In this document: positions 3,039-36,743 of the stretch, in pieces
Numbering within the stretch: the first letter of the stretch is position 1
Layout: each line of letters opens with the position of its first letter
NCBI RefSeq assembly: GCF_018873765.1
Contig: NC_057925.1
Location: forward strand, 45,973,010-46,037,009
DNA length: 64,000 bases
Origin: Telopea speciosissima
Taxonomy: Eukaryota; Streptophyta; Magnoliopsida; Proteales; Proteaceae
Reading direction: 5' to 3'
Position numbers and translations under genes: made by a program
Notes under the pieces: model-generated
Database searches by the model: none
Seen by the model: only the letters and a program-made list of their open reading frames with translations
Told to the model about the DNA's origin: nothing

Positions 3039-3226
3039 GTGAAAGAGAACGCCACCCGGTTGTGTAGCGCACGTCACACCTCCGTGTTGACTCAAGTGCG
3101 CTCGAAATGATCGTTGCACCCCTGAAACCCTAGAAATGGCCAAAGGTGTGGTGGTCATTTCATACACCCATGTGTCAGAGTGCAGGACGACGTGTTTGGT
3201 GCAACCGGGTGGCGTTTTTTCACCCA
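3039..3226. mobile_element. MITE, 188 bp, 8-bp TSD (hAT-like)
   Basis: The inverted ends share AACGCCACCCGGTTG and extend outward to GTGAAAGAG on the left and TTTTTTCACCCA on the right. The flanks are TATTAAAA at 3031-3038 and TATTAAAA at 3227-3234, an exact 8-bp target-site duplication. That length suggests a hAT-type transposase source. Confidence 0.75.
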
Positions 3227-3234
3227 TATTAAAA

Positions 3235-6200
3235 AGCAACATAGATAGGTAATAGGTGGGAGTGTGCCTCATAGGTTAGCTACTATGGTTATAAAGTATA
3301 GGATTAGAGCTGATGTTTTATCTTGTTCTTTTCAATATAATTTCTCTTTGGCAAAAGATTTCGATCACAGCCTCTCTCTCTCTCTCTCAATAGGGGTCCA
3401 AATTAATCACATTTGACGTATCATAATCCACCAATGTCTTTTTACCCAAAAAAAAGAAGAAAAAAACAAACCATCCATGTCTTATGCGGTCGTGCATGGA
3501 AACCCTCTTTTTTCTCTTTTCATATTTCAACCTAACTAATTCCCCCCCCCCCCCCCAACCCCGTCTCCTTCCTGGAAATTATCCTCTCCATATCAATGAG
3601 ATTGGGCCATTAAATGTGGCAGCTGTCAGGTGTCAACATCTTCACCTAGCACTGCTGCATTGCCACACTTTAAGAAATTAGAGAGGATAATAATCCCCTC
3701 TCCCCTCCCTTCTGAACAAAAAAACAACACCTAACTAATAGAGACAGTTGCCATTAGCCATTTCTCGCCTTCAGTCATATACTTGTCAACAATCTGTGAA
3801 ATTGATTGAACCAATGAGATTGGATCACCTACCCATATGTATATGCTTCATGTTCGATTAGGTGATAATATCACATACAGTTCGGTACATGTTGGAGAAA
3901 AAACAAAAAAAAATGTCATCACTTATTCGTACGTGAAGATGAAGTAGTACACATGTTCAGTACTTGAAGTGCAAAAGATAAAATTCAATTGAATTGGTTT
4001 TAGTATAAGAGGAGGCTTCATGCCGGCAACAACCTTTCTTCCTCGCCCAAAACATTTCAGTTTTATAATTACATGAAATCTGGATTAAACATTATTGAAA
4101 ATATCATATATATAATTTTGTTTAGTAAATTAAAACCCAACTAAGCAAATAGCTTATAGAGAACTTAGAGCTCCCTTTTGAGTTCTGACTTTGCTAAGGT
4201 TGAAGACTTGGGTTATCCTTTTTAATTTCTTAGTTCAGAAAATCTTGATAATATGAAAAAACTATGCTACTTCAAGTACCCAACTGGAGCATTTAAACTT
4301 GAAATATACATATTGGAAAAGAAGAATCGAGTTGACCATGTACTCTTATTTCAGTTGAAACACGACGAAGGGTTTCTAAATTAAATTCAAACCTGACCAG
4401 CCAACAAGTTGATGAGTCTCAGCCACTTTCTGGGTTTTGTTTGGGAAGGTGTGGGTGTAACATCTGTGATAATGACACGTTCCAGCTATTGAGAAATCCC
4501 AACTTGTAATCCTTTTTTCATAAAAATGAGGTAAAAGTCTTCATGTACGGTCGTGTATGTGCACGACTTGCATTAAATGTAATTATGTTGGCATAAATGT
4601 TAATCCAAAATGATGTATAAAACCTTATTCCCTTTATTTGATGGAGTTGATTAGAGAATCTCTCGTATACGATACATGGGGTTCGGCAAAATGACCGCCT
4701 CACCGTCTAAATGGCCAAAATGACCACCCCATGTGTATGGCGTAGTTTGCACTCCCAGCCAGAGAAAAATCGCCCAATTAATTAAGTGAGAAAATTCTCT
4801 CTCTCTCACCTTAATCATGTGGGCTCATATAATTGATTCCATCCTCCAGATTACCATTGGTGTGATGTAGGAGATTCTCCCACACAGCTTCACCAAGAAT
4901 CATCTCTCAAAAAAAAATTACAATTTTCAAAAAGCAATGTCATGTAAGAAAAAGGAAATACACGTTGTGTACTACCCTATCATAGTCTCTCTCTCTCCTC
5001 TCTATTCATTAAATATATGGTCCCCTTCTCTTTCCTCATTAAATATAGGATAAGAGAATGATACTTGGTTGCGTAGCCCCAACACCAGTGTAGGGGCCAA
5101 TGAGATTGCGTGTAGGAGCATCAATATAGATGGGATTTTCAATTTTAGGAAGGATTAGATGGTAATTTTGTATGTTCTTATATTTGGGTATAGAAACTAC
5201 AGGATTGGATAATGTTCTTTTTTTTTTTACTATTGACTTAGTGTATAAGATGTTATTATTAACCGATGACACTTAGAGCCATCTTCTTATTATATTAATG
5301 AAATGAAATCAACGAGTTCTAAACCAGTCAAGAGACTTGACAAAGTGGAAGATTTTGTCATCCAAGGCAAACAAAGAAACCCTTCATCCACGGTGATTTG
5401 CTCGTGATTGGATTCTTGAAACAATGAGTTTCATCATTACTGTCATCCCTAATTCTCAAAGGTCTGAAGTATCCTTGATGGAAAGCAAATTCTACGACTA
5501 ACGATTAAAAAGATTCTCTCTTCACCATGGGTGAAATATTAATTCGGTCTTAAATCAATTCCTACTTTTATTTGAACTAAATATTTCAGGATCCAAATCC
5601 CAATTCCAATCTAACGAATATAATGCTTCTAACTCTGATCAATGCAATGGGTCCCATTATTTTTGCATTGAAGGACCACTGAGTTGGGTATCAGTGTGGT
5701 GTTAAGTGTTAATATTTTCCTCGGAATTTTGGAGTTGTATTTAAGGCATTGAGACAATGAGACCTAAAGACTTTTTAAGGAGTGGATTTTATTGACATTC
5801 TCATACTTCCCAAAGTATCACTTTCGTTTCACCAACGTTTTTACCTACCTAAGTTAGGTGTTACACTATTACATAAGATAAGAAAGACCCACATAAACAA
5901 GTCAGACGATCTACTCAGAATTGTAGAATTTGATATACAAGTGAGCCTCTCACACATTCCATTAAAAAAAAATTAAAAGAGCTTCTCATACAAGATTTTA
6001 AAAATCAGAGTTGGAGATAAGATCGGTCTCCATCGATTCTGATTCGAATTGGATCTGATGAACATTGTTTTAAAAATCAGAATCGCTCGCGATTAATCTC
6101 CATTTTAGATATTCTAGAGTGGTCAATTCTGGGGTTTTCTTTGGGATTAGATATTCTACGTTTTCAGATAAGTGGGGTCGATTCTAGGATTTTTGGGAGT

Positions 6201-19112: not shown

Positions 19113-21102
19113 GAACTTGACATCTTCAGAGCGCTCTATTTTAGATGGATTCCGTAGTGTATCGCACAAAAAACCTGGAAATTCAATATCAAAACCAAAA
19201 TCTCAGATTTGTTTATAAGTCCCATGAACAGTAACCATTTGGTGGGATTTTGAAGTGCCACATCAATGCCAAAGCATTTATTAATGATCTTTCCTGAGCT
19301 TTCATAAGTTCAAAAGCTCAAATTAATCAAACAAAATTGAGGGTGGGATTTTGAAATGCCACATCAACATTTTCCCATCCCAATTCTCCCACCTCAACTA
19401 AGTCCCCTCAAACAAACGGGACTTGAAGAGAGAAAAATGTGCAATTTATACGGAGAAGATTAAGATGTAAAGATCCTTCCTCATACCTAATAACTAATAT
19501 AATTGATATTTTATATTAAAAATATGAGAGATCATTGGTGGGCATGATCACAATAAAGGGTTAGTAACTTAGTATTTTAGACAAAATCATGAATTTTAGG
19601 GTATTTCTAACACTTCGGATTATGCGGGAAAATATTAATTTTATCTATGTAGTCTATTTCTCTAGAGCATGGTTTTAGGTATCAAACACATATAGACTGT
19701 AATGGACGATTCGTATCGATATCAGCCGTATCGATATCAGCCAACACTGATATCAATACTTGGCTGATCTAGTATCAGTGGAACGGGATGGATCAAGATC
19801 CAAGGGTAAAATTGTAAAAAAAAAAAAACCCTGATTTTTAAGAAAAACCAGAGGCAATATTGTTAGAAACATGCCATTCCGTGCCAACTCGATCGGATAC
19901 CATCAGGGTTTTAAGAATTGGGAATTGGTCGATTCATATCGGAATCAGTCATGATCGATCCTAGTTTCTACCGATCCAACATTGTCGATTCACACTCAAA
20001 TACCCTAAAAATTCTCTGCTTTTCGATCTGAGGACCGATTCTAGGGTTCTTGAACACCAATTCGGGTCATTCAATCCAATCCGGTTTGGAATCACCAATG
20101 AGGCAATGACCAATTCCATCCTTAATTCTGTGTTTTAAAACCCTCGGATATAGTGCATTTAAACCATGCTCTAGACCATGAATTCCCTTAATTGTACTAT
20201 CTAATAAAAATTCTCTGCTTGTCGATCTGATTACCCTTGGATTAGTAATCTGTATTAGGTTTGTTAGGATTGACGGTGATAATGGTATTGATTTTGTATT
20301 CCTGTTATGTCTTGTATCTCTCTAGTCATTAAATTAGTTTCCTATTCTATTTTTGGTTTCCAAGGTTGACTGTATCAACCGTATATTATGTATGGGGAGT
20401 GCTGGGATCACGCGAGTCAGCCAATGAGAACGCGCATTGGTATCTAGAGGTGGAATTTTCGCCTTTCATGGGAGGCAGTCATTTTGCTCCCCTTATGTGG
20501 GTGTGGCGAAGAGGAAGTTGTTCTTTGTTTTTCATCAAAGTTGCCTTGGTTGGAAGGGTGTTTCGCCTTAAATCCTTGTAAAATTGATGGAAAATTGGTT
20601 TTTTCAAATAACGGGTCGTGTGATTCCGGTGTTAGTGTTTATGTTGGTAGGAATCAAAGTGTCAAAATCAAATTGAAACCATTTACCAAATCCAACAAAG
20701 CCATTTATGTCAAAACCTTAAAAACCTTTTAATAAATGATTTAATTTTTTATTTTAAAATTAAGACCGTTTAGTAAACCCAAGCAAACCGTTTAAAAAAA
20801 TAGTAAACCATTTAAACCGAAACAAATATTAGTGGTATATACTATATAATGGCAATAAGTAACCATACATGATAAACATGTACTCCACCAGCACCATACA
20901 TCTTTCCAAACAGGTCTCACCCAAAATCCCCTCAAATGCTTGATGCAAGCAAGAAGCATTAACCCTTTTTCCACCATTAGAATTTACAATCTGAGTCTTG
21001 GTCGTCTTAGATTACATCATCGTAATTTAGCATTAAAATTTCATTCATCCATTAACAATCCACTCCAGAGAGAAACAAACACATAAAATGAAACTAAATT
21101 AA
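19113..21102. other. Non-coding repeat-rich DNA
   Basis: 19680-19900 is a GATATCAGCC-rich copy of the repeat also seen at 10725. 19915-20110 belongs to the GAATTGGTCGATTC-rich family seen at 6005, 8050 and 63800. Frames at 20366-20732 have no recognisable domain and overlap a block that resembles 16400-16530 in reverse. 20700-20820 is rich in AACCGTTTAAA words. Confidence 0.4.
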
Positions 21103-21181
21103 GTTGTGTTTGATATGCATTCTAACTATTTTTATCGTCCGATAATGCAAAATCGACCTAGAATGCATATCAAACACAGCC
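21103..21181. mobile_element. Tourist-like MITE, 79 bp, TAA TSD
   Basis: The element starts GTTGTGTTTGATATGCATTC and ends GAATGCATATCAAACACAGC plus C. It is flanked by TAA at 21100-21102 and TAA at 21182-21184. The 3-bp TAA/TTA target and the G-rich TGTGTTTG terminus point to the PIF/Harbinger (Tourist) group. The 115-bp relative at 58846-58960 has TTA on both sides. Confidence 0.8.
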
Positions 21182-21299
21182 TAAGAGACTAATAGATAAA
21201 ACAAAAGGAAAGAATCACAGGTGGTAATCTGGCAAACACTAAAGAATGTTGTCCAATCCAGTTAATTTATTGCCATTTAGTCACAGCTTTTGTTACATA

Positions 21300-21610
21300 A
21301 ACCCAAAGCTTTCTCATAGTGTAGCTCTATGTTGTGCATGCCCAGCAGCTATAGTGGCATTCCAAGAACAAGAGATAGGAACTGATGTTCTATTAAGAGA
21401 ATTCATTTCAATGTTAACCTGATGAAATCCCTTGGATATGGCGATTTGGAGGGCCTGTTGAACTGCTAACGCTTCAGCAACATGAGCAAAGATGTATCCA
21501 ACAAATTCCTCAAAACCCACAAATAAACTGTCCATAATGATCTCTAAACTGATACCTGCATGACCAGGAGCACCCATACAAGAACCATCAACATTAGCTT
21601 TGAACTGTTA
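21300..21610 (-). pseudogene. LINE RNase H-like domain fragment
   Basis: The minus strand reads FKANVDGSCMGAPGHAGISL, then FAHVAEALAVQQALQIAIS and KGFHQVNIEMNS. These match the first strand (VDGS), the AEA helix and the G-x-x-x-V-x-x-E-x-NS segment of LINE-type RNase H. It is surrounded by non-coding DNA, and no reverse transcriptase was found next to it. Confidence 0.65.
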
Positions 21611-22914
21611 AGGGAGGAGAAGAGGTTCCCAGACAAAGTGTAAAATTTTAGTAGTAAAGTGCTTCTGGTTATAATCAAAATAATCATTGAGGAAGTTCTT
21701 GGCAGCATGAAACTAATGTTTGGTTGGAATCTTGGAAATCAAGACTTGTAGCAACTAGCTAGTATACTCATAAGACTGAAAGCTCTGGCCCAATTCCTTC
21801 TTTTGCCAATTGAATCATGTCTATTACTACTTTTTTTCTCATCAACCCAAGAAAGAACTGGAATCGGCACGGATCAGCCGATTCCATAGATCCCAGTGAT
21901 GAATTCCCACCCAAAAGTTCTAAAATGGATCCAAGAGGAAAGGTAAGGAAGCTGAGCAAAAAGTGAACCATGTCTTCCCAACTTCAGCATACAGTGCTTT
22001 GTTAATTGTCTTACTAATCATTAACTTCATAGTAATATCTACTGGAGAAGATCTGGATAAAATCCATCTACTCTGAGTCTTCACTTCACCTCTTATCTCA
22101 AATTTTAAGTCTTCAGAAGTAAATCCTTGCTTTCTGTCAGAGGTGTCTTGGAACATAACGATCCCTTGAGCAGATTCAGTAAATATGGTCTATACACAAT
22201 ACAAAATATTCTGAGGTACCCACCCAGTGTACTCATAATACTTGAAACAATGAATAGCTGATTTAAAGGATTCCCAACCTCAAAACTGAGTGAATTCTTA
22301 ACTACAAAGTAAAATAGACTAAATTGTAAATGCGCATAAAGATCTCAAAGGAGTTTATAAGTCTTCATTCTTCAATTCTCTAACTAGTCATTGTATAACA
22401 AACAGAAAGAGATTAACAAAATATGTGTCAATTATTAAGGCCTTTTGCAAGACAAAAAAACAGAAAGCACAAGGGGATTGAAGAGACAGAGATATTGCAA
22501 AGTGAAGCCATAGGAGACCAGTCTAGCCCCAAATTAGGCAAGAAGTCAAAAACCCAACTAGGAGTACATGAAAGTAGTCTCCCTAAAATGTCTACAATGC
22601 AAGGTGAAAATTATACCTTCCAGGCATCAATACTCAGTATGGACTCTTGGAGGGAACTCATGTCTTTGAGCCCTAGTTTATGCAATAGTGTCACAATAGT
22701 AGTTGGATACATGGGTTCTACCTGAAAATCATCGATTACCATGAACTTCGTCTTTCCACAAACAAACACTCCTCTATTTTCTTCAGGACTTTCAGCTTCA
22801 TCTTCAAAATAAAAAAATCCTCTAGAATAGTGTGTTGTTCTATAAACGAAACATCCATGACAAACATAAGCCTATGTTTTATGAGCAAATTACTTACAAA
22901 TTTAAATGAAGTTT
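21611..22914. other. Non-coding DNA, possible further LINE debris
   Basis: Open frames on the minus strand (21768-22156) may extend the LINE remnant upstream, but no motif is clear. Nothing else was recognised. Confidence 0.3.
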
Positions 22915-24802
22915 AGCCTTACCATATGAGTTTTCATACCTACCCCATGACTAGGATAATTGATCTTGTAACATATTCTTAGGAATAGATTAGGCTCTTT
23001 CCATATTTGTTTGGTGATTGACCCTCACATTATTTTGTATATATACTGCTGTAGACACTGAATTTTGTCACCCCCCGGCAATGATAACAACAAGACACGG
23101 ACAGACATCGGTATCTCTCTCAAGAAGGACTCTTATCCCTACATCTAAACCAAATCAGTCTAACATCTCTAAAATGACTTATAAGACCCTTTTACCAAAT
23201 GCTGAAGGAGGTACTGCTCACCTTCCCCAACCACGGCGGTCCCACTAGCCAGTTAGTGGGCTGTGGGGAATTAGGGGGGTAGGCAGCCCCTGATAGAAAA
23301 TTTTCTAAAGAGTCAAAAAGGAGAAGAAAACCCAAAAAGACCAAACCCACAGGCCCAGACAAAACCCCAATACTAAAGGAGCCCATTTAAAGCCCAAAAT
23401 CAAGGAAAATTGGCACTGCGCCCCCACGGCGCCATTGACACTCCTATGGCACTGTGGGAACCTACCACGACACCATAATACTTTTTTCACTTCGCCGTAA
23501 AAGGTTGTGACATCAGCCTGCTGACGTCATCCACGGCGCCGTAGAAAAGTCCCCCACGGTGCCGTGGACATCTCTATGGCGTCGTGGAGGACTTATCTGG
23601 CCCAGCTTGTGGGATACTTCCCCCTATAAATAGGAGGGTCCCCCTCCCTTGTTTTTCACAGTTTTTCGGGCAGAGAGACCCTCCTAGCTCATTTTTTACT
23701 CATTTTTTCCCCAATTCTCTCCCTCTTGAGCGTCTGTTGGAGCGAGACTCCAAAGGCATGGGTAGACCCTTTGATTACCCACTCGAATAAAGAGCGGTTC
23801 TTATCCCACAATTTCGTTATCCCGTCAGTGTACGGATAACGAAAAATCCCATTCGCAACTGTTATTCTGTCTGCATACAGATAACGAGAATCTCTTATAT
23901 AGCTGTTGCTCTGCCCGAATTAAGTGACGAAACCCATCTCATATAGTCCTTACTCTGTCCGACAAGAAAGAGGCAAGCCGATCGTCCGTCTCCACCTAAG
24001 CCGTGGGACATCGCATATTTCGTATTTGGTGAATTTCCATTTATTTCTTGTATTTCTTGATAGGTATCTGTCTCTTTCCTTCTTATTATTTTTGGCGTAA
24101 TGTAGACAATTAAAGTAATTTGCTTTAGTATACATAGTAAATGATTTCTTTTTTGTCATGATTAGTGCATCATAACCTAGCCTTGTGTGTTAGTATATGA
24201 TATATTATTAAGGGAGAATATTCGAAAACAAGCATCTAGTAGAAAGACCGGCTTATCCGGACGAGGTGGGTGCCGAACACCTTCCCACTCTTGTAACCTA
24301 ACTACTTACCTTGAATCTCTTACCAGACCATATGGAATCACGTAGCCCTTTTCGCTAACCTCAGATGGGGCTACATCCATTGGGTCCTAGGCCCTAATCC
24401 TAGGTAGTGACTCCATTTCTTTATGAAGTATGATCCCAATCCCCATGATGATATGTTGGAACGATACGCCGTTATTCATCGAAGTCAATCCTTGTCGCCA
24501 TAAGGCTGAGGAACCCTCGTTTCGAGGACCACGTTACTTACAACTGCCCATTATATCAATAATAGACACAGAAAATTCAATCTCATATTTTATGCTATCT
24601 CCTTAACATCTTACCATATGAGTTTTCATACCTACCCCATAACTAGGATAATTGATCCTGTAACATATTCGTAGGAATAGATTAGGCTCTTTCCATATTT
24701 GTTGGGTAATTGACCCTCACATTATTTTGTATATATACTGTCCATTATATCAATAATAGACAGAAAATTTAATCCCATATTTTATGCTATCTCTTTAACA
24801 TT
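22915..24802. repeat. X-Y-X-Y tandem repeat split by a solo LTR
   Basis: Unit X (about 130 bp, from ACCATATGAGTTTTCATACC to TTTTGTATATATACTG) occurs at about 22919-23049 and 24613-24741. Unit Y (about 60 bp, CCATTATATCAATAATAGAC onward) occurs at about 24547-24611 and 24741-24802. The natural order is X-Y-X-Y. The first X-Y junction is interrupted by the LTR at 23050-24542. Confidence 0.8.
23050..24542 (+). mobile_element. Solo LTR, 1493 bp, with 5-bp TSD
   Basis: It begins TGTAGACACTGAATTTTGTC and ends CACGTTACTTACA. It is flanked by ACTGC at 23045-23049 and ACTGC at 24543-24547. The interrupted X-Y repeat proves the insertion. No second LTR or internal region is present, so it is the product of LTR-LTR recombination. 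A TATA box (CCCCTATAAATAGG, TATAAATA at 23625-23632) lies near the middle. The size and TATA context suggest a Ty3/gypsy source. Confidence 0.85.
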
Positions 24803-25307: not shown

Positions 25308-25685
25308 TCAGTGAACCACAAGGATGAAGAGAGGCTGTGGCACAAGTGGAACCCAGTACTCTCTTATACTCCTAAAACTAATCCCATAGAGATAGCCCTT
25401 GTATGGACCTTCAACCAGATGATGTACCTTCTTCATCTTTGAGAACACATTGCTCGTCACCAAGCTATCAAAACCTGCTTGATGAGTCCCTTCAACTCGC
25501 TTCACCTTAAGTATTTTAGCCAAACATTTCAAACCCAGCTCTCCACCATATAAACCATGACAGAATCTGACCATAAATTTCAGATCATAAAGCCTAGGAA
25601 AGACTTCTCCAACCATAACCTTGAATTCTTGAAATGAACCAGGCATAGGTTTATTCATATTCAAGGCCTTGATGAAATAAACAAT
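25308..25685 (-). pseudogene. CAF1-like deadenylase, C-terminal half
   Basis: The minus strand reads NMNKPMPGSFQEFKVMVGEV, FPRLYDLKFMVRFCHGLYGG, GLKCLAKILKVKRVEGTHQA and GFDSLVTSNVFSKMKK, and ends in a proper stop at 25308. These are the C-terminal half of plant CAF1 (POP2-type), the DEDD 3'-5' exonuclease of the CCR4-NOT complex that shortens mRNA poly(A) tails. YDLKFM contains the third catalytic Asp, and HQAGFDSLVT is the conserved H-x-x-x-x-D segment with the fourth Asp. Plant CAF1 genes are usually intronless. The segment stops a few bases before the copia LTR at 25697. The N-terminal half lies beyond the insertion at 33571-34112, and about 100 bp is present on both sides. Confidence 0.85.
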
Positions 25686-25696
25686 TCAATGTCAAA

Positions 25697-25832
25697 TGTT
25701 GGGATATCCAAGCATAAGGCAAAAATAATAGTCCCACATCGGATGTGAAAGGATATGTGGGTGGGTTAATAGGTACTTAGACACCCTCTCCTTAATGGCT
25801 AGCTTTTGAGGATGAAATCCAAGTTCCTAACA
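25697..25832 (+). repeat. Short copia-type LTR, 136 bp
   Basis: It starts TGTTGGGATATCCAAGCATA, ends AAGTTCCTAACA, and is followed at once by an initiator-Met primer site. The terminal TGTTGG..CTAACA is typical of Ty1/copia. The first 40 bases recur inverted at 33520-33559. Confidence 0.75.
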
Positions 25833-25834
25833 AG

Positions 25835-25847
25835 TGGTATTAGAGCC
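25835..25847 (+). promoter_or_regulatory. Copia primer-binding site
   Basis: TGGTATTAGAGCC differs by one base from TGGTATCAGAGCC, the plant copia site that pairs with initiator-Met tRNA. It lies 2 bases inside the LTR edge. Confidence 0.75.
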
Positions 25848-25892
25848 ACAGTTCTCAGGTTGATTTATTTGTAGTGTTTGGTTTGTTTTGAG

Positions 25893-26331
25893 ATGGAAGA
25901 GTCATCTGGTACGATGATTAAACTCACTGGACCTAATTATTCTAGATGGAAGCCCAAGATGAAGGACATTTTTTATTGCAGTGATTTGTATGATCCAATT
26001 GAGAGAATTGAAGCCAAGTCAAAAAATAAAATCGAAAAAGAATGCGACAGGATGAATATGAAAACTATTGGTACTATCAGAAAAGGGATAGATGATTGTG
26101 TGTTTCATCATGTTGCTAAAGAAACCAAAGCCCAAACACTTTCGAAAAAATTGGAAAGTCTGTATGAGCAAAATACTACACAAAATAAAGTTTTCTTGAT
26201 TAGAAAACTTGTCAATTTGAAGTTCAAAAAGGGACGTTCAGTTGCCGAACATTTAAGTGATTTTTAAAGTTTAGTGAATCAACTGGCTACAGTGAAGATG
26301 ACTTTGGAAGATGAACTGTAAACATTACTGC
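25893..26331 (+). pseudogene. Ty1/copia Gag, first part
   Basis: It starts MEESSGTMIKLTGPNYSRWK, a DUF4219-type start. A UBN2-type Gag body follows with ETKAQTLSKKLESLYEQN and VFLIRKLVNLKFKKGRSVAE then HLSDF. A stop follows HLSDF at 26265-26267, and the frame resumes (LVNQLATVKMTLEDEL) before the gypsy insertion cuts it at 26332. The rest continues at 33048. Gag packages the element's RNA. This copy has at least three in-frame stops. Confidence 0.85.
26327..26331. repeat. TSD of the gypsy insertion, left
   Basis: ACTGC here is repeated at 33048-33052 on the other side of the 6716-bp element. Joining the two sides resumes the copia Gag frame. Confidence 0.85.
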
Positions 26332-28113
26332 TGTTTGAGTTTAAAAATTATACCGCAAGCGTACGGGTCAATCGTAGCTACGGGTCGAACACGAGGAGAT
26401 ATACGTCACTCTATTTAACTAACTTAAAAGTAATGCAAAGTGAACCAAATTAAAGTATTAAATTAAACTAATGAAACTAATGAAAATTAATGCATCCTAA
26501 CTCATAAGCATCTAACAAAATTAAAGGATTAAGTTGGCGTCCTAACACATGAGCATCTAACCTATCAAACTAACGTAAATTCGAAAGAATAACAAAAATG
26601 TAGCCACACTTCATAATCACATAAAAATAAATCAGGGAATAAAAGTGCATCCACATACCACAACCATATAAAAAAAATAAAAGAAATAGAAGGAGAAGAA
26701 GAAGAAGATAGAGAGAGATAGAGGAGAGGGAGAATGAGATTGAGAGTTTAAATAGTAATACATGGATGTACTTGCATGAATGTAATTGAAAAGCTTGAAT
26801 ATTTCATAAACTTACCTTGGCCTCTTCTTCTAAATCTTCAAGTCTTGTCATCAACTTAAGAACTTAGACTAGAAGGCTTAAAACTTAAACTAGAATTAAG
26901 AAATTACAACCCAATTGAAGACTTAAATTGAAATTAAAGCATAAACTAAACCTATTATAACCATTAAATGAAAATAAAAAACCAAACTAGAACTTATAAA
27001 AGCCAAAAATCACAACTTAGAAGGAGAAGAAGAAAAGAAATTTTACTAAGTGAATGAACTAAAAATTACGCTAAAAACTGAATTAAAATTGAACTAGAAA
27101 CTAACTAAAAACTGAACTAAAAAACTAACTTGTTACAACCCAAAAGGCAAGGGGTATTTATAGGGGGAAGAGAGGAGAAGAGAGAAGAGGAAAGTGTAGG
27201 AGAAATATTCCCTAAGAAAAGAGAATATTCTCTTCTCCTTCCTCTTTTACAATGCCTTGAATACTAAGAAAAAAAGAAAAAAAGAAAAAAATAGAAAGAA
27301 GAAGAGAAGATTGTTTACATAGACTTTCTATTTTTATAAAAGCAAATTTCTAATTCTAACTTGTGCTTCCTTTTCTTTGTTGATACCTTCTCCAAGCAAT
27401 AAAATCAAAGATGCTTTGATTTTTCAACCTTCCATAGAAGAGAAAATATAAATCTATGCCAAGTAGAATTCCAGAAGTGCCCTTGAGAAGTTGGAGGAGA
27501 GAGAGAGTAAGGGTGATGACTAGGATTCCTTCAAGAATAAATAAAATACCCATTCTGTCCTTCAAAAAACATGGAGCATGAGGTGCTTATATAGGCCTCA
27601 CCATTGTGTTTCTTGCGAAAAATCACCCAAAATAGACCCAAATTTAGTCCAATTTAGAGTTCGGGAGCCCAAGATATTTCAAGTTGAAGTTGGACTGTCC
27701 AGAGCCCTCCAAATGGAATCTTTCGGGTACAGGAAATATAACTTATGGTTATTGCGTTAAGGCCCCTAGAATCCGAACTTCCGCTTCACTTTGTCCCCTA
27801 TCGACTGTCAATAATTACAAATAAACTCCTATAGACCATTTTCGCGCGTCGTTACAGAAACGGCCGTAACTTCTTCGTTTCAACTCGGAATCAAGTGCCG
27901 TTTGAACCATTACGAAGCTGACTCGATGGGCTACGCACCCAAGCCATTAACACCTCTACACAACTAAAAAATATTTCTTTAGCATCATATCCTCCATTTT
28001 CATAAGAATTCACCTAAAACCTGAAAAGCACAAGAAAGCACCGAGTAACTCTGTCCAATGTGGTAAAATGTATGCTTTATGCCCTAAAATTTCACACATA
28101 AATATGTTCATCA
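26332..28113 (-). repeat. 3' LTR of the gypsy element, 1782 bp
   Basis: On the plus strand it opens TGTTTGAGTTTAAAAATTAT and closes ATATGTTCATCA. It has a TATA box in element orientation (complement of TATTTATA at 27155-27162). It carries about 30 extra bases near 27615-27645 compared with the other LTR. Confidence 0.9.
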
Positions 28114-28132
28114 GATTCCCCCACACTTGAAC
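28114..28132 (-). promoter_or_regulatory. Polypurine tract next to the 3' LTR
   Basis: The minus strand reads GTTCAAGTGTGGGGGAATC and then the LTR start TGATGAACA. Such G-rich tracts prime plus-strand DNA synthesis. AAGTGTGGGGGAA is characteristic of Tat/Athila-like plant gypsy elements. Two further copies of the motif lie inside the element (28410-28425 and 29171-29186). Confidence 0.8.
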
Positions 28133-29264
28133 GTTACTTGTCCTCAAGTAAAGCAAAAACAAAAACTAACCTAGAATGCAGAAAATCCTAACTCACTTTC
28201 GTAGGAATCACGGTTACACTTAGCATGTGCAACAAGCCTTTGAACCCCTAGGTTACCCCTAGTGGACGAGTTGTGTCTCGTAGATGTTTGTAGTGAATAT
28301 ACACCCAAAATTTAATTGTAAATAAATGCTGCAAATTTTAATCAAGGCATAAGTAGGACAGTGCACATAATCCCAAAAAGTGTTCAACTAAAGATCAAGG
28401 AGCCAAGGGTTCCCCCACACTTGAATTTTATCACCCCACATCAATTCAAGTAATAAGCATGCATCAAGATTAAGTGATCTCCTCATATTTTCTGAAAACT
28501 ACTCACCGTCAAGTAAATCACTCATAATATCAATGGAACCAAAGACTTAGGCTTTGAGTATTTTTGACCATACTTTCTTTTTCAAACATTAAGGCAAAAA
28601 CTTTTTTTTCTTTTTCAACAACATACTCTTTTTCTACTCCACTACTGTTCCCTGAATGACATGGTGGAGCATACACCAGACACCCAAATACTTGGTAGCT
28701 TCGCTTTTTGCATATATCCATAAGACATTGAGACATTGATGCAAGAGTTTTTTTTTTGAGTTTCCTTCCAAGGAATTTCGATCAAGTCACCCTGCTTCAT
28801 GAGGCACAGTGCCCTGTTTAGTCCTAAGGAATTCCATTTTCTTTTCTGTTCCTTATATTTTTTTATTTTTTTTTTCCACTTCCACTTTCATGCCTTGCCC
28901 TTGCCACAAACAAATTGGTCTCAACTACTAGCCAAAAGATCAAAGGGTCTATAAAACACATAGAGTAATCTAGCCATCAAATGAAATAACACTCATATTT
29001 TCCAATTCAATCCCCATCACCGGATACAAACTAATTACAGTCCTTGAAAAGGGATTTCTTTATTATTTCGCATGCTAGGGCACCTAATTCCTTCTCACTT
29101 TGCAATCAACGAAACCTATGCACATAACCAAACTACTGCCACAATCAAAATTCACCAATTATGCCCAACATCCCCCCCACACTTTATTCACGCAGTGTCC
29201 TTAATGCATGCATAAAAGAAAGAATAAGGACAAGGGAGGAGATGAAGGAGCTTACCAGATATAA
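28133..29264 (-). other. Gypsy interior, non-coding 3' part
   Basis: There is no open frame of note. It carries two extra polypurine-like motifs (28410-28425 and 29171-29186). It is the stretch between ORF2 and the 3' LTR, where autonomous relatives would have pol-derived or extra ORFs. Confidence 0.5.
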
Positions 29265-29786
29265 TCAACAAAGAGGATCATGAAGAGTCATGGACTCTAC
29301 AAAAAGTGCTAGGAGCAACAACAGAAATCTCAATCTATGGCCAGTAAATGTAGAAATAGATTTAGAACCAGAAAATACTCGACCATGAATTTTAGTAAAA
29401 CGAGAAATAATATAGAAGTTAAGCATAACTGATAAATATCCAACAGGAAAATCTTTCCACACAGCACAGTGGAAAATGAAGGCATTGAAACTTAGGCCAT
29501 AAATCCTCTCAATCTCTCCCGTTTGCAATGTAGAACACATGTCATTATTGTAAAAACCAACCAAGAATGGATCACAATAAGCATAAAAAAGATTATGAAT
29601 AACCTCATCAAAATAATCATAAAAAATGGAAAATTTACTCAAATCAATCCTGGTAATAAAACTATCCGCTCTTTGCAGAATTTGGATTGCCAAATAAGGA
29701 TCACGATAATTTACTTTAAAAGCATAATGACTAACATTGTCCTCCTCAATAAAATCATCAAACCTAGGAGGTTTACAAATCAACAT
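29265..29786 (-). CDS. Second ORF of the gypsy element, unknown product
   Basis: From ATG at 29786 the frame runs 173 codons with no break, overlapping the end of the gag-like ORF by 14 bases. The start is MLICKPPRFDDFIEEDNVSH and a middle part reads GEIERIYGLSFNAFIFHCAV. The final third is hydrophobic (LRFLLLLLALFVESM) and could be a membrane segment. I do not recognise the family and find no protease, polymerase or integrase motif. It may be a remnant of an additional ORF of the autonomous parent. The low divergence from start to stop suggests either youth or selection. Confidence 0.45.
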   Translation of the reverse strand: MLICKPPRFDDFIEEDNVSHYAFKVNYRDPYLAIQILQRADSFITRIDLSKFSIFYDYFDEVIHNLFYAYCDPFLVGFYNNDMCSTLQTGEIERIYGLSFNAFIFHCAVWKDFPVGYLSVMLNFYIISRFTKIHGRVFSGSKSISTFTGHRLRFLLLLLALFVESMTLHDPLC

Positions 29787-30723
29787 GTAAGACAATGGAA
29801 TCCGTAAAATGACAATTATCTGGGTTTTTCAAAGAGAGAGGGGGAGGTTGAATTTCTTGGGTTTCTATGCTATCATGAAAATCTGATTTTATATCAATAA
29901 AAACACTAGGCTTACTAAAATCAGAATTTTCAGGCAAAATGTGGACTTCACCAGGTAGCTCATCAAATCTCGCTTCACTAATATCCTGAGGAGACTCAAT
30001 CTCAACAAATAAATCATCATGAAAAGTAGCTTGTTGGGAATGACTCTCATTAACCTCAAACTGGGGTGGTGGACTTTCAATATCATTAAACTGGGGATGG
30101 GGCGGTTCAGGCTGACTAGGTAATGTACCCGTTTCTTCCTCTTGCACCATGGTTATCAGTTGAGAGAGTTGCTTCTCCATGGTATTTTGGCTTGTTGTGA
30201 GAAGGTCTATGTATTTCTTAAGCTCATTCAGTCTGGCCTCCTCACCCATGTTTTGAAACTCAAGGGGTTGGTGATATGGTTCAAGGAGAGGTGGCCCATT
30301 GAGATTTAATGGAGGGTTGGGCATTGGAGGACCAAACTGACCATGATATTGGAAATTGGGTGGTCCAGCTTGGTTATTCCATTGATCCCACAAGAAATAG
30401 GGATGATCACTCCACCCGTGATTGTAAGTGCCAAAAGAATTGTATTGAAATTGAGGACTCACATTCTCATCACCATTGCTACCCCTATAAAGATTAAGGC
30501 ATCCTTCCATAACATGGATAGTCTGGGGATGTGACCAATCAAAATTTCTCGAAAACCCATAGTTGGGTTGGGGAGCAAAATTGTACTGGAGTGGTGCAAA
30601 ATTATTCTCTATCTCACTACTTTTGGCTTCCCTAACCTGTTTAAACATTTCTTCCAAAATCATAGTTGCCTTAGTATAGTTCCATCTTTCCCCCAAAGTC
30701 TTATATGGAAGTGTATCTCCCAT
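29773..30723 (-). CDS. Gag-derived ORF of the gypsy element, 316 aa
   Basis: ATG at 30723 opens an unbroken 316-codon frame. The first half is rich in Asn, Gln, Pro and aromatic residues (WDQWNNQAGPPNFQYHGQFG). A coiled-coil-like segment then reads LNELKKYIDLLTTSQNTMEK and QLSQLITMVQEEETGTLPSQ. That last stretch matches the C-terminal end of Gag in plant Athila/Tat elements, where a QLxQL coil precedes GTLPSQ. The conserved capsid core and zinc knuckle are not seen, so it is a partial Gag. The tail is acidic and proline-rich. It may bind or guide the element's RNA, but that is inference. Confidence 0.65.
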   Translation of the reverse strand: MGDTLPYKTLGERWNYTKATMILEEMFKQVREAKSSEIENNFAPLQYNFAPQPNYGFSRNFDWSHPQTIHVMEGCLNLYRGSNGDENVSPQFQYNSFGTYNHGWSDHPYFLWDQWNNQAGPPNFQYHGQFGPPMPNPPLNLNGPPLLEPYHQPLEFQNMGEEARLNELKKYIDLLTTSQNTMEKQLSQLITMVQEEETGTLPSQPEPPHPQFNDIESPPPQFEVNESHSQQATFHDDLFVEIESPQDISEARFDELPGEVHILPENSDFSKPSVFIDIKSDFHDSIETQEIQPPPLSLKNPDNCHFTDSIVLHVDL

Positions 30724-31274
30724 TATTCTAAATTAACCACCTATCCAAAATTGAGGTCTCCCATAAAAAAAAATTTAAAGAAAAATAAAAGACTAGAAAA
30801 AAAAATATTAAAAACAAGAGGGAGCCCAAGGTAGATAGTGCATCTATCCCTTAGAAATCGAAACAATGGTTCCAAAGTTGTAAGGTTGCCATATAAGTTG
30901 ACAGCAAGGGAACCTGTATAGTCTTCACGAGCCACCTACGGACGACTCCAAATGAATTCTGATGTAGGGTGGAGGACTACTATACGTTTATGTTTCCAAC
31001 GCTCTCACTATGTCGCTTTCCTGTTATCAAGAGTGGTCACCTCCAAAGATAAGTCACATGCCAATCCAAACCACCCAACGAATCAAGGGGCACTAAGATT
31101 GGCTGGGTTTGGGCATATGAAGGACTTTAGATTGGGCGCACACTATTTGAAACAGAAGAGAAACAAGAAGAGGTTTTAAAAAATATATATATTTTTTTAG
31201 CAAAAGAAGAGAAGAGAATAAACTAAAACACTTCGAACTACTTAAAAATCAGAAAAATAAAGTGGACAATAATC

Positions 31275-31291
31275 TCCCCGGCAACGGCGCC
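31275..31291 (-). promoter_or_regulatory. tRNA-Asp primer-binding site
   Basis: The plus strand reads TCCCCGGCAACGGCGCC, identical to the 3' end of plant tRNA-Asp except for one extra C before the final CA. It lies 7 bases from the 5' LTR (31299). This primer is typical of the Tat/Athila group. Confidence 0.85.
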
Positions 31292-31298
31292 CAAAACT

Positions 31299-33047
31299 TG
31301 TTTGAGTTTAAAAATTATACCGCAAGCGTACGGGTCAATTGTAGCTACGGGTTGAACACGAGGAGATATACGCCACTCTATTTAACTAACTTAAAAGTAA
31401 TGCAGAGTGAACCAAATTAAAGTGTTAAATTAAACTAATGAAACTAATGAAAATTAATGCATCCTAACTCATAAGCATCTAATAAAATTAAAGGATTAAG
31501 TTGGCGTCCTAACACATGAGCATTTAACCTATCAAACTAACGTAAATTCAAAAAAATAACAAAAACCCAATCACACTTCATAATCACATAAAAATAAATA
31601 AGGGAATAAAAGTGCATCCACATACTACAACCATATAAAAAAAAATAAAAGAAATAGAGGGAGAAGAAGAAGAAGATAGAGAGAGATAGAGGAGAGGGAG
31701 AATGAGATTGAGAGTTTAGATAGTAAAACCTGGATGTGCTTGCATGAATGTAACTGAAAAGTTTGAATACTTCATAAACTTACCTTAGCCTCCTCTTCTA
31801 AATCTTCAAGTATTGTCATCAACTTAAGAACTTAGACTAGAAGGCTTAAAACCTAAACTAGAATTAAGAAATTACAATCCAATTGAAGACTTATATTGAA
31901 ATTAAAGCATAAACTATACCTATTACAACCATTAAATGAAAATAAAAAAGCAAACTAGAACTTATAAAAGCCAAAAATCACAACTTAGAAGGAGAAGAAG
32001 AAAAGAAATTTTACTAAGTGAATGAACTAAAAATTACACTAAAAACTGAATTAAAATTGAACTAGAAACTAACTAAAAACTGAACTAAAAAACTAACTTG
32101 TTACAACCCAAAGGACAAGGGGTATTTATAGGGGGAAGAGAAGAGAAGAGAGAATAGGGAAGTATAGGAGAACTATTCCCTAAGAAAAGAGAATATTCTC
32201 TTCTCCTTCTTCTTTTACAATGCCTTGAATCCTAAGAAAAAAAGAAAAAAATAGAAAGAAGAAGAAGAGAAGATTGTTTACAGAGACTTTCTATTTTTAG
32301 AAAAATAAATTTCTAATTCTAACTTGTGCTTCTTTTTCTTTGTAGATACTTTCTCAAAGCAATAAAATCAAAGATGTTTTGATTTTTCAACCTTCCATAG
32401 ATGAGAAAATATAAATCTATCCCAAGTAGAATTCCAAAAGTGCCCTTGAGAAGTTGGAGGAGAGAGAGAGTAAGGGTGATGACTAGGATTCCTTCAAGAA
32501 TAAATAAAATACCCATTCTGTCCTTCAGAAAATGTGGAGCATGGGGTGCTTATATAGGCCTCACCATTGTGTTCCAATTTTGTCCAATTTGGAGTTCGGG
32601 AGCCCAAGATATCTCAAGTTGAAGTTGGACTGTCTAGAGCCCTCCAAATAGAATCTTTCAGGTACAGGAAATATAACTTCTGATTATTGCATTAAGGCCC
32701 CTAGAATCCAAACTTACGTTTCACTTTGTCCCCGATCGACTGTCAATAATTATAAATAAACCCCTACAGACCATTTTCGCGCGTCGTTACGAAATCGGCC
32801 ATAACTTCTTTGTTTCAACTTGGAATCAAGTGCCGTTTGAACCGTTGCGAAGCTGACTCGATGGGCTACGCATCCAAGCCATTAACACCTCTAAACAACT
32901 TAAAAATATTTCCTTAGTATAATCTCCTCTATTTTCATAAGAATTCACCTAAAACCTGAAAAGCACAAAAAGCACCGAGTAACTCTGTCCAATGTGATAA
33001 AATGTATGCTTTATGCCCTAAGATTTCACACATAAATGTGTTCATCA
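31299..33047 (-). repeat. 5' LTR of the gypsy element, 1749 bp
   Basis: Plus-strand limits are TGTTTGAGTTTAAAAATTAT and AATGTGTTCATCA. The TATA box (complement of TATTTATA at 32123-32130) drives leftward transcription through the two ORFs. Confidence 0.9.
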
Positions 33048-33293
33048 ACTGCTATTGAGTTCTTTACCTGATACTTGGGAGACTTTGGTTGTATCACAGA
33101 ACAACTCTGCTCCAAATGGTGTGTTATCATTGAGTGTGATGAAAGACAACATGTTCAATGAGAAAACCAGAAGAAAAGATATGGGTTTGGATAGCTCATA
33201 GGCTCTTGTCATAGAGAACAGGGGTAGGAGTAAAAGTAATGGACCAAGAGGTCGCTATAAATCCAGAGGCAGGTCAAAATCCAGAGAAGGCAG
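33048..33293 (+). pseudogene. Ty1/copia Gag, second part
   Basis: After the gypsy element the copia frame resumes: SSLPDTWETLVVSQNNSAP, then SLSVMKDNMFNEKTRRKD, then a basic tail RGRSKSNGPRGRYKSRGR. The basic stretch normally precedes the zinc knuckle. Here the copia sequence stops at about 33293 and joins an inverted CAF1 fragment. No pol or second LTR in this orientation is present. Confidence 0.85.
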
Positions 33294-33460
33294 AAAGGTG
33301 ACCCATTAAATCCAGTGACCTTCACACCTTATGATCTTCCTGAACCGATTTAAGAATGCTTTGATCCCAACTCCTTCTCTCTTGTTCTTCTCGAAATCGA
33401 TCCCATTACGACGTAGTAACTGGATGAATTCAGTTACGTGAAGGTCGATGGTAAGATCAA
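33294..33460 (-). pseudogene. CAF1 middle fragment fused to a copia gag start
   Basis: The minus strand reads TIDLHVTEFIQLLRRNGIDF and EKNKREGVGIKAFLNRFRKI then IRCEGHWI, a stop and WVTF. This is the centre of CAF1, where plant proteins have a short segment of the type GIDFKKN. It is a second copy of sequence also present in the half-gene at 33571-34112 (about 33690-33850), with fewer broken codons. In frame upstream of it, without any gap, is MEESSSTMI, the copia Gag start (33459-33485). Confidence 0.8.
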
Positions 33461-33559
33461 TCATCGTACTAGATGACTCTTCCATCTCAATACACACCAA
33501 ACAGTGGTAGGATCAATCTCATTACTATTCTTTTTGCCTTATGCGTGGATATCCCAACA
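33459..33559 (-). mobile_element. Inverted copia LTR start plus gag start
   Basis: The minus strand runs TGTTGGGATATCCACGCATA (first bases of the LTR at 25697). It skips the rest of the LTR, contains TTGATCCTACCA, a string also found in CAF1, and reaches GAGATGGAAGAGTCATCT, the gag start. Next to it on the plus strand is TTGGTATCAGAGCC (33561-33574), a perfect copia primer site that abuts CAF1 sequence. Confidence 0.75.
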
Positions 33560-33570
33560 ATTGGTATCAG

Positions 33571-34112
33571 AGCCTAGGAAAGACTTCTACAACCTTAACC
33601 ATGAATTCTTGAAGTGAACCAGGCATGAGTTTATTCATATTCAAGACCTTGATGAAATAAGCAATGTCATAGACACCATGAAAGGTGACCCATTGAATCC
33701 TGTGACCTTCACACCTTATGATCTTCCTAAACCGATCTGAGAATGCTTTAATCTCAACTCATTCTCTCTTGTTCTTCTCAAAATCAATCCCATTACGATG
33801 CAGTAACTAGATGGATTCAGTCACGTGAAGGTCGATGGTAGGATCAAAATCGGCAAAATTAAATTGCCAAACACCACCAGAGTGAGGGAGATTTCTGTAT
33901 ACATCAATGAATGTGAGACCGAACTGGATGGGCTTCAAGTTGTTCACATTGAACTTGATATTTTCATAGCGCTCTGTTTCTGTTGCATTTCTTGGTGTAT
34001 TATGCAGAAAACTTAGAAATTCAGTATCTAAAGAAATACGAGGATAGCTGTGTAAGATGCTTTCCATTTCTTGCTCGAAGTTTGAGCGCCAAACCTCTCG
34101 GATCATTCCCAT
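33571..34112 (-). pseudogene. CAF1-like deadenylase, N-terminal half
   Basis: From ATG at 34112 the minus strand reads MGMIREVWRSNFEQEMESIL, then RISLDTEFLSF with the first catalytic Asp and Glu, then KPIQFGLTFIDVYRNLPHSG, GVWQFNFADFD and NGIDFEKNKRE. Further on comes QWVTFHGVYDIAYFIKVLNM, where H-G-x-Y-D holds the next catalytic Asp. It ends at FPRL, where the chimeric primer-site junction begins. Two in-frame stops (after TESI and after NKRE) kill it. Together with 25308-25685 it would make a full-length CAF1 of roughly 275 residues, so a CAF1 copy was broken here. Confidence 0.85.
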
Positions 34113-36743
34113 AGTTGTTCAAACTTGAAGAAGTGGCGATGGAAGATACAAACTACAAGTTTAGGAGATGAACTAGTTACTTTCTAAAACTGGACTCCCT
34201 TTTAAATTATCAGATTTTAAAAAATCCTAACTAACGGTAATCTTGAACTCCGATTCCCGCGTGCGGCAAATCGATCGTCCTATTTATTCATATCAAGGTC
34301 CAGCCGATTTAATAAGCTAATATGTCTGGTTGAACCGTTTCTTTTGAGCCTCGTTCATGTCTATCCAAGTTATTCTTTAATCAGGTGTAAAAATTCCAAC
34401 CAACACAGACGTATAATGGAGATGAGGTGCAGATTACGGGTTTGTAGTGGGCTTGTGCTTGGCCGGGCCCAAAATATGATTCGGATGATGGGGGCTCACC
34501 CGTTAGGATAATAGGGGTGGGAAGGAGAGAGATGGGAGAGGACGAAGTGGTACAAAAGTTGATGGCAGAGAGGGGGAGAAGAGCAGCTTCCGAGCGGCAG
34601 AAGTCGAAGGGCACAGAATAACAAGGGGAGGTGAGTGGTGGTTGGAGCGAAAGGCTTAGGGCCTCATGGGGGATGATGGAGACCATCTGCAGGCTGACAG
34701 CGAGGGGACAGGTAACAAAAGGAGTAGGCTTCTTAGGAATGGTGCTGTCAGAATTGTGGGCAAGGCTGTAGACCCAAATTGTTCAGTGATCAGGGATGGT
34801 AACTGGACTAACGGAAGGATAGGCAAAGGGAATTAGGGAGTGATTTTCTCGCCGGATTGGGGAGGGGGTGGGAGAAGGGTTTCAGAGGTTGTTGGATGAG
34901 GGTGAGTGGGTTGGGGCTGGTGAGTTATAGAGGAGATAAGTGTTGTGTGATGGAGAAGGAGACATTTTTGAATACGTTCGTAAACCCTAGAGGTCAGGCA
35001 ATGGAGAGGGAGCCAGTCATAGCATAAGCTCTTATTTGAAGGTTCAGCCTTCGTTGTACTATGATGGAATCAGGAGGAGTGGAGTCTGCGTAAACTTCGA
35101 CGCATATACGGGTAGAAGTGAGCCTGTTCAGGAATTGGTTTACCTGTCTGAGAACAAGGGCTTTCCTAAAATAGACCCAAGGATGCTTAGGCAGAAGATG
35201 GGTTGAGTTGCAAAAATTTGGATAATGGCAGCGATGGGGCCTGGAGGGGGAACATAGGTTGAGTTGTAAAATTTGGGATAGTGGCGGTGGGGCCACCCTA
35301 GGAGGGCTGGGCATAACATCTCCAAAATCAATTGTACTCAGCTGAATGTGAGATAGTTGGCCCTTACTGGTACTTAAAATCAAACATGTTCTCAATTCCT
35401 CACTCTTTCAGAGAAGGTATTTGATTTGTTATTTAAGAGTATATGAAATAGAACCATCTTAATTGAGTGGTAGTTAGGTACTAATTGACAAGCTTGTTCG
35501 GTATATTTTCTAGGAAAGTTGTGGAACTCATTGTAAGTAGTGTAATTTGTTTTAGTGGTTTATATAGTTATTTCCTTTACTAACACCTCTGTTTTCTGTT
35601 CTTATTATTTTTTAGCTCATTCAAGGTTTATTGTTCAATTTGTTTACCACTGGTTGACACATAAACTTCTCATAGAGGATTTGGTTTTATCACATTTGCT
35701 GAAGTGATCTCAGCCGAGTATGCTTCCCAAAAAGTACATTGGATTCTAGGACAGAAAGTATGTTTTAAGATAATTTTTTTTCTTCATTTGTTGTTTGATT
35801 TACATAGTGTAAATTTCACTTGAATTTTTCATTTGAGGTTTTGGTTTTATGATGAAATTTCAGCTGGGTATGCTTATTGAAAGATGCATAAGATTCTAGG
35901 GAAAAAGCTGTGTCTTCAAGATATTTTGTTTTAGATGTTGAGAATATTATATTCTTTATCACCTATTTAGTGAATATTTTAGTTAGAATCTTGTTGACTT
36001 AAGAGTGACTTGTGAATCGATGTCACTGTATTTTAATCCTGCATGAGCTCTGCTGGAATCAGGCTTTGAATTGAAGAATCTGTCTTTTAATCAATCTATT
36101 GACCAACTAATTCTTCAGCTTCTATAGGATAAAATTTAGCTCCTGCCCGGGTTGTAGTTAAGTAGCTGCAACACCTATGTGGCATTACCTCAGTTCAATT
36201 ATATGTACATCTCCTATAATTATTGCTAAACCCAATCTAACAAAAAGAAAGATAAAATATTCCCACCCTCAATCGATTTTATTTTACCCTTTAGTTTAGG
36301 GGTAAAACAGAAATTAAATTGTAGTTAAAAAAATCCCATCTCCTGTACACCTCTTCTTCTTCTTCTTCTTCTTCTACCCTGCCCCGTAGCCCAGCCTCAC
36401 CCCACTCCCTTTCTTCATCCCAACCCACTGTCCAACTAGTTCTGCAATCTCATAGACTTCACGAAATCAACCAAGTTAGGTTTGACAAGTGTTGCACTTG
36501 ACAAGTTGCAGGTTGATCCTCATTAGAATGTTTGGATTTTGAGTACATGTTTCTACTACAAGTAATTCATCATTCCAATCAACATCACCACTTGTCAGAT
36601 CCTCTCATGCATAATCCATAGTTTCCACTTAGATTCTATTTCTTCAGAAAAAAAGAAAAAGGAAACCCGCATCATAAACTCAGAACTGGTCCTCTAAATA
36701 CATTTCAATCTAATAGAGTACAAATCTAAGGCTGACCATCGCA
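34113..36743. other. Intergenic DNA, no confident gene
   Basis: The minus-strand frames at 34381-34686 and 34994-35395 are Pro/Ser-rich. The second includes RICVEVYADSTPPDSI, which faintly resembles LINE ORF1 DUF4283-type text. About 35165-35305 contains a diverged tandem pair around GTTGAGTTGYAAAA. A CTT microsatellite occupies about 36355-36377. Nothing else was recognised. Confidence 0.35.

Follow-up and report, generated by a model that had tools for sequence, protein, structure and literature searches.

The window analysed here comprises 64,000 nucleotides of Telopea speciosissima contig NC_057925.1 (C10:45973010-46037009, in a genome of 823 Mb). At positions 25308-34112 it holds a mosaic of pieces of a CAF1 deadenylase gene and of long terminal repeat (LTR) retrotransposons. 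The mosaic is real and old. On balance, we take it to be a CAF1 pseudogene of chromosomal origin, in which a break was repaired with aberrant cDNA as filler, drawn from a terminal-repeat retrotransposon in miniature (TRIM) and a copia element, which left about 277 bp of CAF1 duplicated. The rearrangement itself would be a well-dissected case of a dead gene scrambled by break repair and cDNA, and the TRIM-copia chimera within it is the more useful part of the finding. We propose no function, since CAF1 is in broken pieces here and the open reading frame (ORF) of the fusion is short and contains a stop.

A preliminary description, made from the sequence alone, had given the order and strands of the pieces, and both are borne out. 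The joints that it placed at 25690, 33294, 33460 and 33570 are refined to 25685/25697, 33293-33296, 33460 and 33571-33574. Chance is a poor account of the mosaic, because every larger piece has relatives of its own and the other listed matches end at the joints.

CAF1 copies and their chromosomal paralogue

The two outer pieces match CAF1 in Pfam (E = 1.7e-8 and 1.9e-6), in agreement with their first identification. The closest relative of the window CAF1 lies at C5:9419138 (90% identity), in a paralogous locus (C5:9417279-9422221, L009) with an uninterrupted, intronless ORF of 316 amino acids that carries the CAF1 domain (C5:9418738-9419688, minus strand; L009 2739-3689) and matches human CNOT7 at E = 6e-48. 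In the CNOT7 alignment, the DTE, YD and SD positions, which we take to be the catalytic ones of CNOT7, appear to be kept in this ORF. The C5 locus serves as an empty-site comparison in which CAF1 is uninterrupted, although it is a paralogue and not an allele; at the window locus CAF1 is present as two overlapping fragments, with no complete ORF bearing the domain.

Window segment 24801-25685 aligns with C5:9417384-9419232 and segment 33571-36751 with C5:9419138-9422176, in the same order and past the gene at both ends. The alignment has gaps, with about 1.17 kb extra in C5 at 9417491-9418659, and the window block 34561-36221 is only 79% identical to C5. Because non-coding sequence colinear with C5 extends from both outer CAF1 pieces, they are chromosomal DNA and not mRNA copies. 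The absence of introns in the window CAF1 cannot prove an mRNA origin, since the C5 gene is itself intronless.

In L009 coordinates the left arm ends at 3233, the middle piece spans 3248-3415 and the right arm begins at 3139; the middle piece begins 14 bp (or about 10 bp) past the end of the left one, as expected for one chromosomal copy. These coordinates define two overlapping CAF1 copies, A (25308-25685 plus 33293-33460) and B (33571-34112), which overlap by about 277 bp, with 263 aligned bases at 90.9% identity. The preliminary description had reported an overlap of about 100 bp at some 92%, which holds for a 95-bp part (91.6%), but it had missed the second copy of the middle piece: 33293-33460 matches 33680-33847 at 90.5% over 168 bp. 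A and B have diverged to a similar extent in both overlaps (8/95 and 16/168 sites). Two premature stops are found in B and one in the middle of A, none of them in common.

Further to the left, window 19113-22354 contains an 82-bp CAF1-like remnant together with segments that match C5:9425693-9426545 and C5:9417489-9418600, in an order unlike that of C5. They look like the remains of a tandem array of CAF1 units that has since decayed, and such units seem to occur in tandem in this family. The alignment with C5 is also lost at 22919 and regained at 24801, with an 8-bp overlap, as for an insertion with an 8-bp target-site duplication (TSD); 22918-23048 and 24610-24740 are direct repeats (96%).

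Chimeric joints between TRIM and copia

The sequence at 25697-25832, first described as a copia LTR, is the LTR (136-137 bp) of a TRIM family of about 418 bp. Seven two-LTR copies of this family were read (L013-L017, L019 and L027), with LTRs of about 137 bp and an LTR-to-LTR spacing of about 280 bp, as well as a single LTR (L021) and an incomplete copy (L026). The 5-bp TSD, scored by eye, is perfect in six of the seven and agrees at four of five letters in L016. The window fragment has one full LTR only, and its 3′ end is absent.

The plus-strand piece that follows is copia gag, as had been stated (Pfam PF14223, E = 3.1e-13). Its relative L022 (C6:44635000-44644000) has gag, rve and RVT_2 in that order in separate ORFs, which is the Ty1-copia order. 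In the window this piece is preceded by the TRIM LTR and not by an LTR of its own. We rejected the assignment of the LTR at 25697 to copia because none of the seven copia copies with 5′ ends read carries it upstream of the leader. The upstream sequence in all seven is unlike the TRIM LTR; it is proven to be an LTR in L022 and L018 (C9:42468000-42477999) only, and L024 contains no direct repeat of 100 bp within its 7-kb stretch. The copia LTR is longer than the TRIM LTR and different from it, and the LTR pair of L022 is 98.9% identical over a best block of 372 bp. TRIM and copia have in common AACAAGTGGTATCAGAGC at the primer-binding site (PBS). The junction of polypurine tract (PPT) and LTR start, GAGGGGGAGAT followed directly by TGTTGG, is found in both copia copies examined (L018 and L022) and in five of the seven TRIM copies. 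With matching PBS block and PPT/LTR start and differing LTR bodies, the copia family of L018 and L022 is a candidate helper of this TRIM.

When a 151-bp query across the TRIM/copia joint was used (best 40 of 504 candidates scored), the window was the only one of 42 listed matches to cover both sides; the others stop at query position 63-82 or begin at 55-67. A pattern search for the joint with up to three mismatches returned 24 places, with the window as the sole match without mismatches. The other 23 have two or three mismatches and letters after the PBS unlike the copia leader, and the two of them that were read both belong to a second TRIM subfamily. A replicating family of TRIM-copia chimeras is not supported, as there is no second copy among the matches listed or the pattern places. 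The second subfamily (L060, L061 and the pattern-match places) has LTR pieces about 79-86% alike and the leader CRAGGTTGT.

Second-strand transfer is the natural step that places the LTR of one element before the interior of another at the PBS. Template switching probably occurred between the TRIM and the copia element at this site; an identical sequence would result if DNA copies had recombined within this 18-bp block. We tentatively suggest that the joint may be a fossil of an inter-element second-strand transfer, in which TRIM strong-stop DNA moved onto the minus strand of its helper in a shared particle. If this is true, the copia family that shares the PBS and PPT, but not the LTR body, would be the mobilising partner of the TRIM, and PBS-joint chimeras, together with dimers in which the reverse complement of the PBS is followed by AT and an LTR, would offer a way, applicable in general, to recognise the helpers of orphan TRIMs from sequence. 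A chimera at a shared PBS would be evidence that a TRIM and a given copia element were reverse transcribed together, an idea that can be tested in any genome. In an excerpt from one survey, longer related elements are given for only 11 of 289 TRIM subfamilies (PMC4717578).

The right-hand side of the mosaic has a second aberrant joint. On the minus strand, CAF1 copy B leads into GGCTCTGATACCA, then AT, then TGTTGGGATATCC, which are the reverse complement of the PBS, two bases and the LTR start. CCA is the end of the minus strand before second-strand transfer, and AT-TG is the start of the plus strand; the PBS itself, TGGTATCAGAGCC, is presumably of the initiator-methionine tRNA type. With up to two mismatches, this arrangement occurs at two places in the genome, the window and C1:80101208 (L020). 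At the latter place it forms the middle of an inverted TRIM dimer, which has GGAGG, a 5-bp TSD, at both flanks. In this dimer (C1:80100800-80101494; L020 2801-3495) the reverse complement of LTR, interior and PBS is linked via AT to a complete TRIM, which suggests that the integrated molecule was a dimeric cDNA with U5 at either end. The dimer is old, since its arms differ at 42 of 268 sites, and its TSD indicates that aberrant cDNA joints do arise in this genome. The inverted piece in the window may derive from a molecule of this type or from the lineage of L020.

A 151-bp query across the right-hand joints (best 40 of 133 candidates scored) found the CAF1 joints and the TRIM-copia joint of this side in the window only, among 43 listed matches, with L020 sharing the PBS/LTR part. 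The joint of gag start to CAF1 middle, for which the preliminary description had suggested a search for further genomic copies, has no other copy among these 43 matches, and a repeat family built on it is thus not supported. The in-frame fusion described there is present, as a short frame with one stop. The short strings noticed at the joints, AGCCTAGGAAAG and, on the minus strand, TTGATCCTACCA, are also present; within the leader, the 12-mer TTGATCCTACCA may stem from CAF1 or may be copia leader sequence that has diverged. Bases common to the two partners are GAAA between gag and CAF1 (33293-33296), AGCC between PBS and CAF1 (33571-33574) and TT between CAF1 and inverted gag (33460). The 14-mer TGGTARGATCAATC stands on both sides of the inverted gag piece, and the left joint contains the stutter CAAT/CAATGTCA.

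Origin and age of the mosaic

For repair with captured cDNA we envisage the following course. Within one particle, TRIM plus-strand strong-stop DNA (LTR and PBS) would transfer onto the copia minus strand via the identical PBS block, giving a cDNA of TRIM LTR, copia leader and gag, and in another aberrant product the 5′ end of a plus strand (AT-TGTTGGG) would be attached to the 3′ end of a minus strand (reverse complement of the PBS, ...CCA). CAF1 would be opened by a double-strand break or by two staggered nicks and closed by end joining with short homology and capture of these cDNA pieces, and a CAF1 stretch of about 277 bp would remain on both sides of the last filler. Later, a gypsy-like element inserted in the gag piece, giving a TSD of 5 bp, and CAF1 underwent decay. 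We infer the order of steps and the mechanism from what is directly observed, namely the pieces, their joints, the uninterrupted paralogue, the duplication and the rarity of both transposable-element joints in the searches made. This account is favoured because of the C5-colinear flanks, the coordinates of the arms, the similar divergence of A and B in both overlaps, the putative homology at the joints, the rare transposable-element joints and the PBS and PPT shared by TRIM and copia. Templated or filler insertions and patch-repair duplications at double-strand breaks are reportedly treated also by Vaughn and Bennetzen (2014).

Precedents for both parts of this course are described, in the partial texts used here, in yeast, where retrotransposon cDNA is captured at breaks (PMC10802722, PMC11724301), and in rice, where patch repair gives tandem duplications (PMC7971508). 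The mosaic resembles the rice events in its local direct duplication, putative short joint homology and added sequence, but the duplication is longer and the filler would be retrotransposon cDNA with aberrant reverse-transcription joints. With the yeast events it would have in common a partial LTR-element cDNA at a break with putative microhomology; it differs in being in a plant, chimeric between two families, and longer. Chimeric LTR elements ascribed to template switching (Sabot and Schulman 2007, PMC1950507; Veju and BARE-2 in PMC13317346, as far as the extracts go) likewise have two retroelements co-reverse-transcribed into one molecule, whereas here the probable switch lies at the PBS, involves a TRIM and a copia element with unrelated LTR bodies, and left a one-off fragment. 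The TRIMs of PMC4717578 are also elements of about 410 bp with short LTRs and a PBS of the TGGTATCAGAGCC type; in the excerpt, partners were sought by similarity to the TRIM, whereas our candidate shares only PBS and PPT signals and is linked by the chimera.

The CAF1 tree proposed in the preliminary description was built from A, B, C5, C9 and C3; C5b, a second partial CAF1 on C5 about 5.5 kb from the C5 gene, was left out as it covers only 108 sites. Over 263 sites, A and B differ at 24, A and C5 at 26, and B and C5 at 21. None of the three A/B/C5 topologies is rejected (approximately unbiased test, p = 0.41-0.60; resampled log-likelihood proportions, RELL, 0.31, 0.31 and 0.38; log-likelihood differences ≤ 0.05), and the tree thus speaks neither for nor against one ordinary gene broken by insertion and inversion. 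The bootstrap, with 200 trees, joins A and B in 91% of them, but the internal branch measures just 0.003. We take this grouping as unsettled and trust the topology test over the bootstrap, because the branch is so short and no site carries a derived change shared by A and B; polarisation with unanimous outgroups gave 0 informative sites.

This lack of shared derived sites weighs against repair with captured cDNA, and so do several other points. A may be as old as the C5/C10 split or older, so that A and B could already have stood in tandem. Each joint homology of 2-4 bp is weak alone and may be due to chance, and the repeated 14-mer is the strongest. The duplication of 277 bp is long for repair when set against the rice tandem duplications, whose share is down to about 5% by 200 bp in the part of that report used (PMC7971508), and the captured piece of about 880 bp lies above the 45-300 bp or so favoured for captured cDNA in the yeast extract (PMC10802722). 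The TG terminus at 25697 is an exact LTR end and fits ordinary integration too.

The main rival is a pre-existing tandem pair of CAF1 units, in which a TRIM-copia chimera would have integrated normally in A, and deletions would have removed its 3′ part and fused A to B with transposable-element filler. The roughly equal distances among A, B and C5, the partial second CAF1 on C5, the remnant and segments at window 19113-22354 and the exact LTR end all agree with it. It requires, however, that the 3′ deletion ended by chance within 10-14 bp of the insertion site and that a second deletion acquired filler of the same two families, inverted; no intergenic sequence is seen between A and B, and the bootstrap value places A with B, though on the very short branch. 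We regard this course as possible but rather unlikely. The preliminary description had instead proposed that reverse transcription switched templates between copia RNA and the mRNA of CAF1, followed by integration into or recombination with a CAF1 copy. Template switching as such is probable, but its partners would be TRIM and copia at the PBS, and the outer CAF1 pieces are genomic. Although the shared strings at the joints, the PBS and LTR termini and the in-frame gag-CAF1 fusion fit an mRNA switch, the middle CAF1 piece adjoins the left one in CAF1 coordinates and is antisense to the left copia piece and sense to the right one, which is impossible from a single RNA-to-RNA switch. No poly(A) is seen at the joints, and a fusion is in frame by chance in one case of three; we consider this origin improbable. 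Least credible is an assembly artefact joining separate repeats. It would agree with the identity of the 36-bp inverted LTR start to several TRIM copies, but the CAF1, copia and full-LTR pieces are 7-14% from the relatives compared, where a misjoin would be expected to be near-identical, the element nested inside the mosaic is bounded by a perfect TSD, and the colinearity with C5 holds on either side. As for gene capture by an LTR element (retrotransduction), which places a host gene between two LTRs with a TSD, the mosaic does not have this structure: no TSD was found around it as a whole, the 5 bp on either side of 25697-33559 do not match, and a 3′ LTR is lacking.

As to age, the mosaic most likely predates the nested insertion and arose at about the time of the C5/C10 duplication or later. 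Divergence from C5 is 5-11% in five blocks of the non-coding flanks; the copia piece is 9.6-11.9% from six relatives, the full LTR at 25697 is 7-14% from TRIM LTRs, and A is 9.1% from B. The 36-bp inverted LTR start, being identical to several TRIM copies, is an exception. The LTRs of the nested element, about 1.75 kb each, differ at 98 of 1745 aligned sites (5.6%).

Feature coordinates, nested element and other TRIMs

Table 1. Pieces and joints of the mosaic, in window positions
Position	Strand	Feature	Basis
25308..25685	-	CAF1 copy A, C-terminal half, open frame	best match C5:9418860-9419232
25686..25696	.	11-bp joint TCAATGTCAAA, in part stutter of CAF1 CAATGTCA	sequence reading
25697..25832	+	TRIM LTR, 136 bp, TGTTGGG...CCTAACA	87-93% to LTRs of seven two-LTR TRIM copies
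25833..25847	+	AG and PBS; TRIM-to-copia switch inside block AACAAGTGGTATYAGAGC common to both families	
25848..26331	+	copia leader and first part of gag; gag ATG at 25893	Pfam, relatives
26332..33047	-	nested gypsy-like LTR element; LTRs 26332-28113 and 31299-33047; TSD ACTGC at 26327-26331 and 33048-33052	
33053..33296	+	copia gag, second part; its end GAAA in common with CAF1	
33293..33460	-	CAF1 copy A, middle; second copy of 33680-33847	C5:9419247-9419414
33461..33503	-	copia gag start with the last part of the leader, inverted; direct repeats TGGTARGATCAATC on both sides (33449-33462 and 33505-33518)	
33504..33523	.	short filler, of which TGGTAGGATCAA alone is assigned, as equal to CAF1	
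33524..33559	-	inverted TRIM LTR start, first 36 bp	identical to several TRIM copies
33560..33574	+	AT and TGGTATCAGAGCC (PBS at 33562-33574); minus strand reads reverse complement of PBS, AT, LTR start; AGCC common with CAF1	
33571..34112	-	CAF1 copy B, N-terminal part, two premature stops; runs on into C5-colinear flanks	

The nested LTR element of the preliminary description is confirmed as an ordinary insertion with a perfect 5-bp TSD, and it is younger than the mosaic, since it is inserted within the gag of the latter. The two of its interior ORFs that were compared with Pfam have no match. A string that we take to be PBS-like faces the minus strand, and the element therefore seems to be in minus orientation. 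No tRNA genes were found in the window in a search with bacterial settings. Elsewhere in the genome, the places C10:7329984 and C10:7330278, L049 and L050 have the appearance of tandemly arrayed TRIMs.

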